The notes beneath the pieces are model-generated. The model did not search any database, was not told the origin of the DNA, and saw only the letters and a program-made list of their open reading frames with translations. From Deltaproteobacteria bacterium (GTDB taxonomy: Bacteria > Myxococcota_A > UBA9042), in the NCBI GenBank assembly GCA_016875335.1, contig VGRO01000010.1:1-61402 (forward strand): a stretch of DNA of 61,402 nt. The letters are read 5' to 3'. The position numbers and the translations under genes were made by a program. Positions 1,859 through 51,495 of this stretch are shown piece by piece (position 1 is the first letter of the stretch; every line of letters begins with the position of its first letter).

Positions 1859-2848
1859 ATGATCGATCTCGACCGCCTCAACCGCCTGCGCCTGCACCGC
1901 CGCCCGTTTGGTCAAATCGCGTACGCCAACCTCGTACTGTCGTGGGACTACCAGTTTCCGCGCAAGACCGAGATCGTGCTCGAAGGCCTGGACCACCTGC
2001 CGCGCGACCGCAGCGTGTTCCTGGCCATGAACCACACCGACCGCTACAACTACTGGCCAGCCCAATACGCAATGTACCGCCGCGGCTACCCGTTCACGGC
2101 GACCTGGGTCAAGGGCAAGTACTACGACCATCGCGGCACGGCGGCCTTCCTCGACTCGACCAACAACATCCCCTTGCCGTCGCGCGGCTATGTGCTCGTC
2201 ACCGATTTCCGCCAGCGCTACGGTCGCAAGCCGGCCGAGGGCGAATACCGGTTCCTGCGCGACCTGTGCGACGGCCTGGCTGATGCGGCAGCGGCGGACG
2301 TCGGCGCTCAGTCCGACCAGGTGCGCAACTGGATTGCCGCGTGCGGGGGCGACGCAGCCGGGTTCGTCCAGTGGTTCGAGGCGCGCTTCGCGCCGCTGCT
2401 CGATCACGTGATCCGCCTGAACCGTCAGGCGATTTGCGAACTTGGCCTGAACGTCCTGGTCTTTCCGCAGGGCACGCGCAGCATCCGTCTGGCGCGCGGC
2501 CACACTGGCCTCGTGCAGGTCGCGCACCACCTGGGCGCCGCCATCGTGCCGGTGGGCTGCAACGGCAGCGACAAGGCCTACCCGGGCGGATCGCCGTTCT
2601 CCAAAGGCGGCCGCATCGTCTATCGGTTCGGCAAGCCGCTCGAGCCCAATGGCCCTGAACTCGGGCCGCACCGTGTCACTGAGGCCTATTCGCCGCTGTC
2701 ACGGGCCGCTGGCGAGGCCCATGGCGTCCAGTTCCGCGCGGCGACGGACGTGGTCATGGCCCACATCAACGCGCTGCTCGACCCTGAGTACCAGGCGGCG
2801 GCCGACCAGCGGAGCGACGGTGTGCGCGGCTTGGACCGCTTCTTGTAG
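1859..2848 (+). CDS. PlsC-like lysophospholipid acyltransferase family protein with altered motifs
   Basis: The 329-residue protein has the layout of the glycerol-3-phosphate/1-acylglycerol-3-phosphate acyltransferase superfamily, which acylates lysophospholipids at the inner membrane. Motif I lies at about residues 58-64 (N-H-T-D-R-Y-N), motif III at 202-208 (F-P-Q-G-T-R-S) and motif IV near 229-233 (I-V-P-V-G). The usual H-x4-D is H-x4-N here and the usual E-G-T-R is Q-G-T-R, so both conserved acidic positions are amides. An unusually long insert (about residues 110-195) separates motifs I and III. The ATG at 1859 is chosen because an AGGAAGGA Shine-Dalgarno sits just before it; an upstream in-frame ATG at 1808 lacks one. 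The fold assignment is good. Catalysis is uncertain. Confidence 0.75.
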   Translation: MIDLDRLNRLRLHRRPFGQIAYANLVLSWDYQFPRKTEIVLEGLDHLPRDRSVFLAMNHTDRYNYWPAQYAMYRRGYPFTATWVKGKYYDHRGTAAFLDSTNNIPLPSRGYVLVTDFRQRYGRKPAEGEYRFLRDLCDGLADAAAADVGAQSDQVRNWIAACGGDAAGFVQWFEARFAPLLDHVIRLNRQAICELGLNVLVFPQGTRSIRLARGHTGLVQVAHHLGAAIVPVGCNGSDKAYPGGSPFSKGGRIVYRFGKPLEPNGPELGPHRVTEAYSPLSRAAGEAHGVQFRAATDVVMAHINALLDPEYQAAADQRSDGVRGLDRFL

Positions 2849-2886
2849 CTTGCTTTGGGCTGACCCGGGACTGTCTCGCCGGACTG

Positions 2887-3462
2887 TCAATCCGCCAAGC
2901 CCTGGGCACCGAACCACGGCTTGAGTTGCGGACCACAGTTGGCCAGGCCCTCGAACTGGTAGATGCCCGAGTCGGCATGCACCGTGGCGCGGTTCGGCGA
3001 GAAATCCACGCGCTGCACCGTGCTGGGTGCAATCTCGAAGCGAAAGCGCCCCATCTCGATGGCGCCCAACGATTGCAAGGTCGACGACCCGTCTTCGCCC
3101 AGACCGCCGGCCTTGGTGACCACCCGCGAGGTCGCCTCGAACACGACCACGCCGTCGGCGCACGACAGCTTGCCAAAAGGAGGCATGGCGCCGTGGACCG
3201 CTGAATTGTAGGTACAGCTGACCTTGTCGAGCTCGGCCGGCGCCGAGGCCTCTTGCACCGGCGGCACAGTGATGGGCTTGGCGGGGGCGGCGGGCGCGGC
3301 CGCGACTGGACTGGCCGCAGGCCCCGGGCTCACCGGCGGGCGCGCCGAGGCAGGTGCGGGATCGGGAGGCTGGGCGGCGGGCGCCTTCTTGCGCATCGCC
3401 ACCAGGCCGACCGCGACTGCGATCGCCAGAGCGACGGCCACTGCTGCGACAATCGGATCCAT
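2887..3462 (-). CDS. Membrane-anchored protein with Pro/Ala-rich linker, unknown function
   Basis: A 191-residue protein. Residues 4-21 form one hydrophobic segment followed by R-K-K, so the N-terminus is probably a signal anchor with the rest in the periplasm. Residues about 25-75 are a Pro/Ala-rich linker. The remaining ~115 residues are a small soluble domain with three cysteines, including an L-S-C-A-D-G segment. I do not recognise the domain. The ATG at 3462 is chosen over an upstream ATG at 3609 because it has a GGAGG six bases upstream and starts right at the anchor. It is divergent from the giant cysteine-rich lipoprotein gene at 3639, with a 176-base shared upstream region. Confidence 0.7.
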   Translation of the reverse strand: MDPIVAAVAVALAIAVAVGLVAMRKKAPAAQPPDPAPASARPPVSPGPAASPVAAAPAAPAKPITVPPVQEASAPAELDKVSCTYNSAVHGAMPPFGKLSCADGVVVFEATSRVVTKAGGLGEDGSSTLQSLGAIEMGRFRFEIAPSTVQRVDFSPNRATVHADSGIYQFEGLANCGPQLKPWFGAQGLAD

Positions 3463-47759: not shown

Positions 47760-47945
47760 TTGGAGGGTGTCTATGTTTGATTGCCGTCGCGAGCGGAATC
47801 AGGCGCCCGTCAGGCGAGGCGGAGGTTGTCAGGCGACTGAGGCGTAGCCCCAAGCTACGCCGCAGGGAGCCTGGCGACCGACAACAAAGCATGGCGGGAT
47901 GCATGGTTACGCGTAGCAGGCGTTTCAAACGTAAACACCCTCTTA
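47760..47945. mobile_element. MITE-like element, copy 1 (180-bp core)
   Basis: Core 47763-47942 begins GAGGGTGT and ends ACACCCTC; 15 of 18 core-terminal bases pair between the ends. TTG precedes and TTA follows (TAA and CAA on the other strand), a near-matching 3-base duplication. The centre has an 8-bp stem GGCGTAGC/GCTACGCC with a nested GTTGTC/GACAAC. No reading frame of note. The end at 47943 supplies the TAA stop of the cysteine-rich lipoprotein gene. Confidence 0.6.
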
Positions 47946-49670
47946 CTTGCACGAAAACGACGTCTCGGTGCTCTTGACGCACATGAGTCCGTCCGAACAC
48001 TTCTTGGCCACGGTCTTGGCGCCGTCGGCCAGCGTGGTCGACGAGCACTTGACGGCGCTCGTGCCCGTGCAGCCCGCGACCTGGGCGATCTTGTAGCCGG
48101 TGTCGCCCTCGCAGACGTATTTGTAGTTCGACGCCATGGTCGAGCAGGCCGTGCCCGCCGGCAGGAAAGTACTGCTGGCTTTGTCGCAGCACACGCCGTC
48201 GGTGCAGCAGTCGGGCTTGTCCTTGAGCACGCACGCCCCGGTCGCCAGGTTGCACGCCGCCACCTTGCAGCCGCCGGGCACGGCCCCCGGGTCGTTCGCG
48301 CAGTCGGCGTCGGCGTCGCAGCACCCTGGTTTCTTGGGCCCCGTGCACACGCCAGCGTCGTCGCACTTTGGCGTGGTGGCGCACGGACCCAGGGCAAGGC
48401 AGGTGGTGCCGGCCGGCTTCAAGGTCCACGCGCCAGGCTTGGTCACGTCGCAGACCTTGCAGCCGCCCGACCCGTTGGCCGCCTTGCCGTTGGCGACGCA
48501 CTGGCCGTCAATGGCGCAGTAGCCCGTCTTGGCGGTCCAACCACTCTTGTTCTTGGCGACGTCGCACACCTGGCAGGCATCGGCCGGGTTGGCGGCTTTG
48601 TCGGCGATGCACTGCCCGTCGATGGCGCAAAAGCCGGCCTTGCCGGACCATGCGGCGGCGTTCGCAACCGGATCGCACACTTGGCAGGCACTTTGCGGAT
48701 TGGCGTCGCCGGCCTTGTAGCATTTGTTGTCGATGAGGCAGTTGCCCGACTTGACCGTCCACGAGGTCGTGGACTTGGTGGCGTCGCACACCGCGCACGC
48801 CGCAGCCGGGTTGGCTTCGCCAGAGCCCAGGCACAGGCCGTCGATGGCGCACTTGCCGGGGGCCGCGGTCCAAGCGTCCTGCTTTTTGGCCGGGTCGCAA
48901 GTCGCGCACGCGCCGAGTGCCGGATCTTGGTCCCCAGCCTTGTAGCACTTGCCGTCGAGCAGGCAGTTCTTGGTGTTGATCTTGTTGGTGCACTTGCCGG
49001 CCTCGCAGAAATCGAGCGTGCAATCGATGCCGTCGTTGCAGTCCTTGGGCTGCTTGGTGCAGGTGCCGCTGATGCACTTGGCCTCGTTGCAGGCGTCGCC
49101 GGCCGGGCACTCGCTGTCGGCCTTGCAGCACGACTTGAGCGGTTGCTGGAAGCAGTAGCCGTTGGCCTTGTTGCACGAGTCGCTGGTGCAGTCGTTGCCG
49201 TCGTCGCAGTCGCCGTCCTTGCTGCACTTGCACAGCTCTTGGAACCCGGCGCAGCAGTTGCCCTCGCTCAGGCACAGCACCGAGCAGTGGCACGGGTTGT
49301 CCTCCATGTAGATGCCGCAGTGGCCCTCGCAGGTGGTGACCGCAGGTTTGGTTTCCGGGACCGCGTCTGCACCCGTCGCACCGCCGACGTCGCTATCGCT
49401 CGGTGCAACACCTTCGCCGTCACCGCCGTCAGGGACAGCGCCCGGGTCGTCGCCGCCGAGGTCCAGCGGCTTGAGCTCCGGTTGGCGGCTGGAGGTGTCC
49501 GGTACGGACCGGCCGCCGCCATCTTGCTCGAACCGCGAACCGGTGTCAGGCTCGCCCGCCCCGGCCTCGGGCAGGGCCACGTCGTCGGCCGGCGCCTCCC
49601 CCTCGCAGCCCGCCGCTGCGGCCGCCACCACCGCCACCGCCATCCATGCCCATCGCTTCACCAATGCCAC
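47943..49670 (-). CDS. Cysteine-rich lipoprotein with one somatomedin-B-like module
   Basis: A 575-residue predicted lipoprotein: lipobox A-A-A-A-G-C (Cys22), Asp/Gly-rich spacer to about 112, then an eight-cysteine SMB-like module (114-149, with G-N-C-C where the others have G-D-C-C). C-x-D-G-N-D-C-T type units follow, then at least five copies of a ~37-residue unit G-x-C-x-I-D-G-x-C ... N-P-x-x-A-C-x-V-C-D-x5-W. It ends in further Cys modules and Lys. The start GTG at 49670 has a GGAGG. Its stop TAA forms the junction with the MITE-like element. Similar to 18212-20467 in domain set. Function unknown, probably surface-exposed. Confidence 0.87.
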   Translation of the reverse strand: MALVKRWAWMAVAVVAAAAAGCEGEAPADDVALPEAGAGEPDTGSRFEQDGGGRSVPDTSSRQPELKPLDLGGDDPGAVPDGGDGEGVAPSDSDVGGATGADAVPETKPAVTTCEGHCGIYMEDNPCHCSVLCLSEGNCCAGFQELCKCSKDGDCDDGNDCTSDSCNKANGYCFQQPLKSCCKADSECPAGDACNEAKCISGTCTKQPKDCNDGIDCTLDFCEAGKCTNKINTKNCLLDGKCYKAGDQDPALGACATCDPAKKQDAWTAAPGKCAIDGLCLGSGEANPAAACAVCDATKSTTSWTVKSGNCLIDNKCYKAGDANPQSACQVCDPVANAAAWSGKAGFCAIDGQCIADKAANPADACQVCDVAKNKSGWTAKTGYCAIDGQCVANGKAANGSGGCKVCDVTKPGAWTLKPAGTTCLALGPCATTPKCDDAGVCTGPKKPGCCDADADCANDPGAVPGGCKVAACNLATGACVLKDKPDCCTDGVCCDKASSTFLPAGTACSTMASNYKYVCEGDTGYKIAQVAGCTGTSAVKCSSTTLADGAKTVAKKCSDGLMCVKSTETSFSCK

Positions 49671-49834
49671 GTGTGCCTCCGGGCCGCGCTTGTGCGATCG
49701 GGCCGAAGCGCCAATTGTAGCCGTTTGCGGTCCAAGGCGCACGGTTTTGGGCGCTCCCTGCGCGCTGGCGCCGCCCATGCTGCGGCAGCCACGCCCCGGT
49801 TGCATTCGACGCCGCCCGCGCGCATCCTGCCGAC

Positions 49835-51313
49835 ATGACGCACCTTCGCCTCGACCTCGACCGCGTGGCCCTCAAGCTCCGCCGCACCCGCATCGTCGCC
49901 ACCGTCGGCCCGGCCAGCCTGCAACCGGGGGTGCTCGCCAAACTCGCCGAGCACGTCGACGTCTATCGCCTCAACTTCTCCCACGGCAGCCACGACCAGC
50001 ACGGTGCCGCGATTGCCGCCATCCGTTCGGCCGCGGCCGAGGCCCACCGCGAGATCGCCATCCTGGCCGACCTGTGCGGGCCCAAGATCCGCGTCGGCCG
50101 CTTCGAGGGCGGCGGCATCGAACTGGAATCAGGCGCCCAGCAGACCGTCACGGTCCGACCCGAACTCGGCCGGCCGGGTCTCATCCCTTCGGAGTACAAG
50201 GGGCTCATCGGCGACGCCCGGGTGGGCGCGCGCATCCTGCTCGACGACGGCAAGCTGGAGATGCGCATCCTGGCGGTTGCCGCCGACGAACTGACCTGCG
50301 AGGTGGTCCACGGCGGGCGCTTGACCGATCGCAAGGGCATGAACCTGCCCGATTTGCAGGTATCGGCGCCGGCCGTGACCGAAAAGGACATCGCCGATGC
50401 CCGGTTCGCCGTGCGCGCTGGCGTCGATTGGCTGGCGCTCAGCTTCGTGCGCGACGGTGACGACGTGCGCGGACTGCGCCAGTTGCTGGCGGCCGAGGGC
50501 TTCCAGGTGCCGATCGTCGCCAAGATCGAGCGGCCCGAGGCGCTGACGCACATCGGCGACATCCTGGCGGCGGCCGACGCGCTGATGGTGGCCCGCGGCG
50601 ACCTGGGCGTCGAGGTGCCGGCCGAAGAAGTGCCGCTCATCCAACAGGAACTGATTCGACTGGGCATCGCCGCGAATACGCCCGTCATCGTCGCCACCCA
50701 GATGCTGGAGTCGATGATCACCCACCCGCGGCCGACCCGCGCCGAGGTGACCGACGTCAGCGCTGCCGCACGCGCCGGGGCCGACGCGGTGATGCTGTCT
50801 GGCGAGACCGCCTCGGGCCAGTACCCGGTCGCGGCCGTCCAGACCATGGACCGCGTGTTGCGCATGGTCGAGGGCCACCAGTGGCGGTACAACCAGTTCG
50901 GGCGGCTGGTCGGCGACGGCCCGGCCATCCTCGACGTGTCGCGACCCGACGACGTGTTGAGCGAAGCGCTGTCGCGGGCCGTGGCGCAACTGTCGCGCGA
51001 CCTCAAGGTCCGGGCCATCGTGGTGCCGACCGATACCGGGCGCACCGCGCAGATGGTGTCGGCCGAACGGCCCGCCGCGCCGATCCTGGCTTTGTGCGCC
51101 GAACCGAACTTGGCGCGCCGGCTCAAATTGCACTGGGGCGTGCTGCCGGAGGTGGTCGGTCCGATCGGCGACCGTGCCAGCGTGCCGGCGGTGGCCGTCG
51201 CCCACGCAACGCGGATGGGCTACGCGGGCCCGGGCGACTATCTGTTACTGGTCTGGAACCCGACCGCGGCGGGTCGCCTGCTTGCGCCGACGGTGACGAT
51301 CTTGCGGGCGTAA
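49835..51313 (+). CDS. pyk: Pyruvate kinase
   Basis: A 492-residue glycolytic enzyme that makes ATP and pyruvate from phosphoenolpyruvate and ADP. Recognisable are R-R-T-R-I-V-A-T-V-G-P-A-S, the R-L-N-F-S-H-G catalytic Arg/Asn region, L-C-G-P-K-I-R, the active-site K-I-E-R-P-E-A and metal-binding M-V-A-R-G-D-L-G-V-E, the A-T-Q-M-L-E-S-M-I loop, and a C-terminal allosteric domain. Its stop is the TAA at 51311-51313, immediately followed by the second MITE-like element. It is divergent from the cysteine-rich lipoprotein gene with 164 bases between. Confidence 0.96.
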   Translation: MTHLRLDLDRVALKLRRTRIVATVGPASLQPGVLAKLAEHVDVYRLNFSHGSHDQHGAAIAAIRSAAAEAHREIAILADLCGPKIRVGRFEGGGIELESGAQQTVTVRPELGRPGLIPSEYKGLIGDARVGARILLDDGKLEMRILAVAADELTCEVVHGGRLTDRKGMNLPDLQVSAPAVTEKDIADARFAVRAGVDWLALSFVRDGDDVRGLRQLLAAEGFQVPIVAKIERPEALTHIGDILAAADALMVARGDLGVEVPAEEVPLIQQELIRLGIAANTPVIVATQMLESMITHPRPTRAEVTDVSAAARAGADAVMLSGETASGQYPVAAVQTMDRVLRMVEGHQWRYNQFGRLVGDGPAILDVSRPDDVLSEALSRAVAQLSRDLKVRAIVVPTDTGRTAQMVSAERPAAPILALCAEPNLARRLKLHWGVLPEVVGPIGDRASVPAVAVAHATRMGYAGPGDYLLLVWNPTAAGRLLAPTVTILRA

Positions 51314-51495
51314 GAGGGTGTAGCCAAATCTCGTCTGTTGCGAGGTCGAAGAGCATGCCGGCAGATCGCGAGCGCGCCCGCAGCGACCGACCGAGGCGCA
51401 CTCGCAGTGCGCCGACCGAGGAAGCGAGGACGTAAGCCGCGAGATGCCCAGGATCTTCGGCCGTTGCGGGACGGGGTTTTGGCTACACCCTCTAA
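51311..51495. mobile_element. MITE-like element, copy 2 (179-bp core)
   Basis: Core 51314-51492 runs from GAGGGTGTAGCCAAA to TTTGGCTACACCCTC, a perfect 15-bp terminal inverted repeat. Direct TAA flanks at 51311-51313 and 51493-51495 look like a 3-base target duplication, as in some IS5-family groups. The centre holds GGCGCACT/AGTGCGCC (51395-51413). Size, ends and central stem match copy 1 although the interior differs. The left TAA is the pyk stop codon; the right end lies between convergent pyk and HAD genes. Confidence 0.68.

Follow-up and report, generated by a model that had tools for sequence, protein, structure and literature searches.

In the window, the whole stretch of 61,402 nucleotides that was analysed, two short palindromic elements enclose a gene for a cysteine-rich protein and a gene for a pyruvate-kinase-like protein (Table 1). 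Both elements start with GAGGGTGT and finish with ACACCCTC; the complete ends of copy 1 are GAGGGTGTCTATGTTTGA and TCAAACGTAAACACCCTC. The first-pass annotation had described the two as alike in size, ends and a central 8-bp stem and as different in their interiors, and this description holds (180 and 179 bp, the first 8 bp being the same). It was likewise right in taking the TAA stop of the cysteine-rich gene as the edge of copy 1, which touches this codon with its right end. On the left, copy 1 is flanked by TTG (47760-47762) and on the right by TTA, so that its target duplication is imperfect. The elements fold from end to end, with RNA energies of -105.4 kcal/mol for copy 1 (z -8.70) and -106 kcal/mol for copy 2 (z -7.65), each compared with 200 shuffles, and the third element that was folded gave a z value of -5.32. 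The inverted ends of family members match at 16/18 and 15/15 positions. In the relative G005, the orthologue of the pyruvate-kinase-like gene encodes the same ...TVTILRA end followed by a TAG stop, and the element is absent there. To this extent the earlier proposal that insertion preserves the host protein exactly is borne out, as contact with the stop leaves the protein end unchanged.

Table 1. Positions of the two elements and of the adjoining genes in the window.
Feature	Position	Strand	Remarks
MITE copy 1, subfamily A, full-length imperfect hairpin	47763..47942	+	180 bp
Left terminal inverted repeat, copy 1	47763..47780	+	16/18 positions match right repeat
Right terminal inverted repeat, copy 1	47925..47942	-	
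TAA stop of cysteine-rich gene, equal to the TTA target flank of copy 1	47943..47945	-	
Cysteine-rich (likely lipo)protein gene ending at copy 1	47943..49643	-	longer start at 49805 possible
Pyruvate-kinase-like gene	49835..51313	+	name from sequence reading; orthologues found
TAA stop of pyruvate-kinase-like gene, equal to the left target duplication of copy 2	51311..51313	+	
MITE copy 2, subfamily B, TAA/TAA flanks	51314..51492	+	179 bp
Structured core of copy 2, common to MITE-like elements in other Myxococcota-type genomes	51360..51447	+	98.6 bits
Right TAA target duplication of copy 2	51493..51495	+	

The genome from which the window comes (6,656,893 bases in 479 contigs) was searched for exact GAGGGTGT-N140-170-ACACCCTC pairs, as the first-pass annotation had proposed. 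This search returned 17 pairs genome-wide on each strand and none in the reversed control, and chance short palindromes were dropped as an explanation on this count. Similarity searches together with a stitched set of 690,884 bases gave 86 copies or fragments, 28 of subfamily A, 44 of subfamily B and 14 of subfamily C, in agreement with the MITE-like family suspected from the two loci. These 86 are a partial census: subfamily B was scored on 40 of 111 first-look candidates, and several copies sit at contig ends, so that the assembly under-counts the family. Subfamily A resembles copy 1, subfamily B, with forms of 179 and 200 bp, resembles copy 2, and subfamily C is 176 bp long. Near-identical copies occur within each subfamily. 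Subfamilies A and C are alike over the core (about 73-77%), the similarity of C to B is weak and comes from a covariance model, and beyond the common first 8 bp the ends of A, B and C diverge. A single interior common to both window copies was unsupported, as a core model built from B-type cores misses copy 1 and detects C weakly.

Complete elements are about 176-202 bp long and multicopy, carry terminal inverted repeats and, judged from their size, lack coding capacity. With target duplications and with ends that match an autonomous transposon (for subfamily B that on contig C289, at one end only; for A-like ends an element of the relative G019), the family is one of MITEs. REP and BIME sequences are palindromes of 20-40 nt with a REP-associated tyrosine transposase, and neither the element length nor the TNA duplications of the present family fit them. 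When five loci were compared with the Rfam models, none of 4227 families matched up to E 1, and a known RNA family was dropped.

Both flanks could be read for 45 near-complete copies. Identical 3-bp flanks were found in 22 of these, 20 of them TNA (6 TCA, 6 TAA, 5 TTA and 3 TGA) and two CAA. Among the others, three have differing TNA on both sides, 13 have one TNA flank and seven have none; a perfect TNA duplication is thus missing in 25 of the 45 copies, copy 1 included. The imperfect duplications could be due to a lax target, to later decay or to recombination between copies. Often their two sides are one transition apart, as in C215, C52 and C70 (CTA/TTA), in C203 and C7 (TTA/TCA) and in copy 1 (TTG/TTA). 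Targeting specific to TAA was dropped, since the flanks are TNA. The reverse complement of TNA is again TNA, and on one strand each of the four forms reads TAA or TGA. Ends of GGGCC[AC]GGAAATGATT or GGGACTGGAAATGATT mark a second MITE-like family, which is also bounded by TNA and often directly adjoins the first; it was seen at L096:1712-1846, in a repeat ending at L096:678 and in the flanks of 11 of the 45 copies.

Genes were predicted with a custom caller based on codon usage, not a published one, which was trained on 461,402 bases (88% coding); three parameter settings agree on the excess at stops. Predicted genes in this set end with TGA in 173 cases, TAG in 163 and TAA in 14. The first-pass annotation had placed the insertions at TAA stops. 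Contact with stops stood, as 18 of the 45 near-complete copies lie directly against a predicted stop; the restriction to TAA stops did not, the target being TNA (TAA, TTA, TCA, TGA and a few CAA) and 27 of the 45 lying elsewhere. Of the 77 copies or fragments in which one junction or both could be read, 22 abut a stop exactly. Empty sites were rebuilt for 36 usable insertions with TNA flanks, nine of the 45 being dropped for short flanks or lack of TNA, and of these three lie inside genes and 33 in noncoding DNA. Fifteen of the 33 noncoding insertions are at a stop, against 4.5 expected from noncoding TNA sites of the same class (P 5e-5) and 5.8 expected when neighbouring bases were matched as well (P 1e-4). 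Twenty of the 33 insertions lie no more than 30 bp from the 3' end of a gene, compared with 240 of 974 background sites. When insertions and background were both limited to 100 bp or less from a 3' end, with bases matched, 15 of 22 insertions were at stops against 10.0 expected (P 0.02). The numbers were 9 of 12 against 4.9 (P 0.014) for perfect duplications within the same distance and 17 of 24 against 10.5 (P 0.005) with a stricter gene caller, and over the two caller settings other than the main one P was 0.005 to 0.018 for the tests limited in this way. For copies with differing flanks the stop-giving flank was chosen, a slight bias toward stops by which the perfect duplications are unaffected. 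In subfamily A, seven of nine noncoding insertions are at stops. Relative to the abutted gene, 11 copies have the same and 12 the opposite orientation, and an orientation bias was dropped.

In related genomes, among them G003 of the same genus and G006 of the same family, a predicted stop adjoins 7 of 34 copies, many of the 34 having one readable junction only (G003 3/19, G005 0/1, G006 3/6, G013 1/2, G028 0/6); at the loci of G003, G006 and G028, stops make up 94 of 1268 noncoding TNA sites. A second count in the relatives, by other criteria, gave 5 of 12 at stops, and three of these five have mirrored TAA/TTA flanks which may belong to the element ends. At L219, L243 and L239, elements edged by mirrored TAA...TTA adjoin genes, and the element end would then supply the stop of the gene. 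The excess at stops is statistically real; TNA specificity and survival near gene 3' ends explain most of it, and the residual at the exact stop is weak. Calling insertion at stops a strategy of the element, as had been suggested at first, asks for more than is needed.

Profile searches of the window's genome gave a single hit for PF13340, on contig C289, and four for PF01609. The C289 transposase carries PF13340 and PF01609 on two overlapping frames, and the NCBIfam model transpos_IS5_3 is split across both, each half scoring below the cut-off. On its right the C289 element ends with GTTTTGGCTACACCCTC followed by TTA, which is the end of subfamily B and of copy 2; its left end is missing, another repeat having truncated it at a TAA. 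Two oppositely oriented copies of the second MITE-like family enclose this transposase. In the relative G019 we found an element of 1267 bp, TTA/GAGGGTGTTTACAT...ATGTAAACACCCTC/TTA, which encodes a 354-aa IS5 transposase; its left end matches the right end of copy 1 at 14 of the first 15 positions, and it is apparently intact, with copy-1-like ends. Transpos_IS5_3 scores above the cut-off for the transposases of this element and of one in the relative G003. The G003 IS5 element has GAGGGTGT-type ends, is 1292 bp long (L320:1182-2473) and adjoins the predicted TGA stop of a gene (2474-3442). A look for an IS5-family element with the ends of the MITEs had been proposed as a check. The C289 transposase with the copy-2 end answers it in the genome itself, and copy-1-like ends came from G019; the assembly yielded no intact autonomous element, and none of the transposases found in it has A-type ends. 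Of the three other contigs with PF01609 (C301, C320 and C350), C301 and C320 contain no GAGGGTGT site and hence no end pair. On C301, degraded A copies lie next to a transposase fragment. The end types distinguished are GAGGGTGT, GGAGGCTG, CCCCAGAG and GGGTCCGT. Within the IS5 family, the IS1031 group is described in PMC12016507 as inserting preferentially into TNA with formation of a 3-bp repeat, two overlapping frames being used by some of its members. With an IS5-type DDE transposase, a TNA target and a 3-bp duplication, the putative helper would belong to this group.

We consider it very probable that both loci are non-autonomous palindromic MITEs which were moved in trans by TNA-inserting, IS1031-like transposases of the IS5 family, with stops regenerated on insertion and survivors retained at gene 3' ends. 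Such transposases would recognise the GAGGGTGT ends, and insertion into TNA would duplicate it. Because TNA is self-complementary and always gives TAA or TGA on one of the strands, an element landing on an in-frame stop of either kind would regenerate that stop and leave the host protein unchanged. Insertions inside genes and many upstream ones would be purged, and since TNA is scarce in this GC-rich genome, the survivors would gather at gene 3' ends, often on the stop. Several observations run counter to this explanation: the assembly gave neither an intact autonomous element nor a transposase with A-type ends, 25 of the 45 near-complete copies lack a perfect TNA duplication, the ends of A, B and C differ past the first 8 bp, so that one transposase for all is at most a possibility, and the signal at stops is weaker in the relatives (7/34 overall and 0/6 in G028).

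In this explanation the excess would stem from selection and not from a choice of target. The rival view is that the elements actively choose stops, with a transposition complex attracted to where translated or transcribed genes end, over and above what TNA and selection bring about. This would account for the over-use of stops that persists within 100 bp of 3' ends, in the perfect duplications and with the stricter caller, for the high share in subfamily A and for the G003 IS5 element, which is likewise found at a predicted stop. However, matching for 3'-proximity and flanking bases reduces the threefold effect to 1.5-fold, G003 with 3/19 and G028 with 0/6 show little of it, and copies of the same family are not fully independent events. 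We regard active choice as rather unlikely.

Insertion by TNA-specific transposases, as we propose it, has partial counterparts among known systems. As far as PMC12016507 describes it, the IS1031 group (e.g. ISLrh) is alike in the TNA target with 3-bp duplication, in the DDE transposase on two overlapping frames (here C289) and in ends that start with GA and are of similar length (17 bp). Unlike ISLrh, the MITEs are gene-less and their ends are GAGGGTGT, not GAACCTG, and the GAGGGTGT-end elements of the relatives have a single frame and 1.27-1.29 kb, compared with 857 bp for ISLrh (PMC12016507). Correia/NEMIS, RUP, CIR and YPAL, in the description of PMC2229807, share a length below about 200 bp, inverted ends, duplications, stable hairpins and the absence of a protein; they are mostly TA-ended and A+T-rich, whereas the present elements are bounded by TNA, G+C-rich and have one core with several ends. 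ISPsp10 of the IS427 group (PMC4133298, as described there) also inserted as an IS5-family element at a target TAA that supplies a stop, but this stop serves its own transposase and the duplication is TA, whereas here it is the stop of the host gene and the target is TNA. QMITE1 and QMITE2 of Coxiella (PMC5896051) are also MITEs, one of the two lies at the 3' end of a gene, and QMITE1 has a conserved core and variable ends; in that description they occur mainly in one species, a TNA rule does not figure, and the ends are variable and not swapped for other defined terminal repeats. Neither landing of TNA elements on stop codons nor this core was found in our literature search, most subscription journals being outside its coverage. 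If the proposed explanation is right, a simple rule follows: for a TNA-specific transposon every TAA or TGA stop, on both strands, is a harmless target, since the duplication restores it. In genomes that are GC-rich and have few TNA sites, the rule could account for elements that seem to be aimed at stops.

With copy 2 as query, matches came from 18 of the 36 genomes searched, a set that includes the genome of the window itself, and several of them were to positions 54-128 of the element only. A core pattern (GACCGAG, a hairpin, CGACCGAG and GAGGANGNAAGCC), with fixed loop motifs and GAGGA-AAGCC arm and with variable stem positions left free, was scanned over the GTDB contig collection and gave 60 stretches from 18 record prefixes. 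All are titled Myxococcales, Myxococcota or Deltaproteobacteria except for two MAGs, one named Proteobacteria and one Klebsiella pneumoniae, the latter probably a mislabel. The same core lies between different ends: GAGGGTGT; GGAGGCTG..CAGCCTCC with TAA/TAA; CCCCAGAGTTCGCCTC with TAA/TTA; GGGTCCGTCCCGGAAC with TGA/TGA; GGGAGGCTGGTCA; and GAGCCTGTTGG. These elements with differing terminal repeats are about 177-182 bp long. Other genomes have shorter core surroundings without clear ends, and an automatic end search gave weak pairs for many of the 60. We aligned 33 cores, copy 2 and rows from the 60 less near-identical cores of the same genome and those cut by contig ends. In this alignment 96.5% of the cells agree with a set of 21 base pairs, compared with 27-40% when slid by 1-3 columns, 12 of the 21 show compensatory changes with both sides altered, and 0 of 500 shuffles reach any of five measures of the pairing. 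G-U cells slightly exceed A-C cells, which is not decisive for a strand preference. Run over 52 genomes of the class, a covariance model detected the core in 13 at E 1e-6, and these 13 belong to two families. Besides copy 2 (score in Table 1), it gave 50-53 bits for the 200-bp B form and 18-22 bits for C copies (E 0.0017-0.02); copy 1 was not reported by the model. The statement on the core hence applies to the subfamily of copy 2, copy 1 being tied in through the chain of similarity from A over C to B only.

These data also bear on the idea that the hairpins are kept for an action at the RNA level at 3' ends, as terminator or REP-like mRNA stabiliser, and that copies at stops are selected for it. 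Hairpins over the whole element, the crowding of insertions within 30 bp of 3' ends and the compensated pairs of the copy 2 core would suit such a role. Compensatory changes in palindromes can, however, arise by templated repair without selection; many copies form clusters with other MITEs or lie elsewhere between genes, Rfam gave no match, and copies occur in both orientations, though a palindrome would work either way. We judge this role improbable. That chance alone accounts for the short ends which the window copies share, or that these are palindromic terminators without relation to each other, as the unlike interiors of A and B and a core model detecting B and missing A might suggest, can hardly be maintained beside the exact end pairs, the near-identical copies inside subfamilies, the TNA flanks and the bridging similarity of A to C and weakly of C to B, and for the families it is excluded, while the A and B interiors may still differ in origin.

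For subfamily B we tentatively put forward, as a possibility short of an even chance, that the core of ~88 nt has been under selection as a structured module, in the form of RNA or single-strand DNA, and spread in Myxococcota as cargo of MITEs. Its ends would have been swapped on several occasions for the ends of other transposases that target TNA, with the fold, the unpaired motifs and the length of ~180 bp kept, and landing on stops would let it accumulate in 3' untranslated regions without cost to proteins. A core conserved in its fold between several kinds of ends would represent an unusual mode of mobile-element evolution, and it is a candidate RNA or protein-binding motif in 3' regions of Myxococcota. 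Two copies of CGACCGAG face each other in the core as a symmetric internal loop (alignment A1, columns 31-38 and 57-64), across which tandem G-A and C-C mismatches could form pairs. Four relatives belonging to a single genus (L165, L167, L168 and L179) have the core at what seems to be an orthologous position next to a tRNA-like sequence; its stem shows compensatory changes, TNA-bounded ends are absent, and it is possibly an immobile copy that has been kept.
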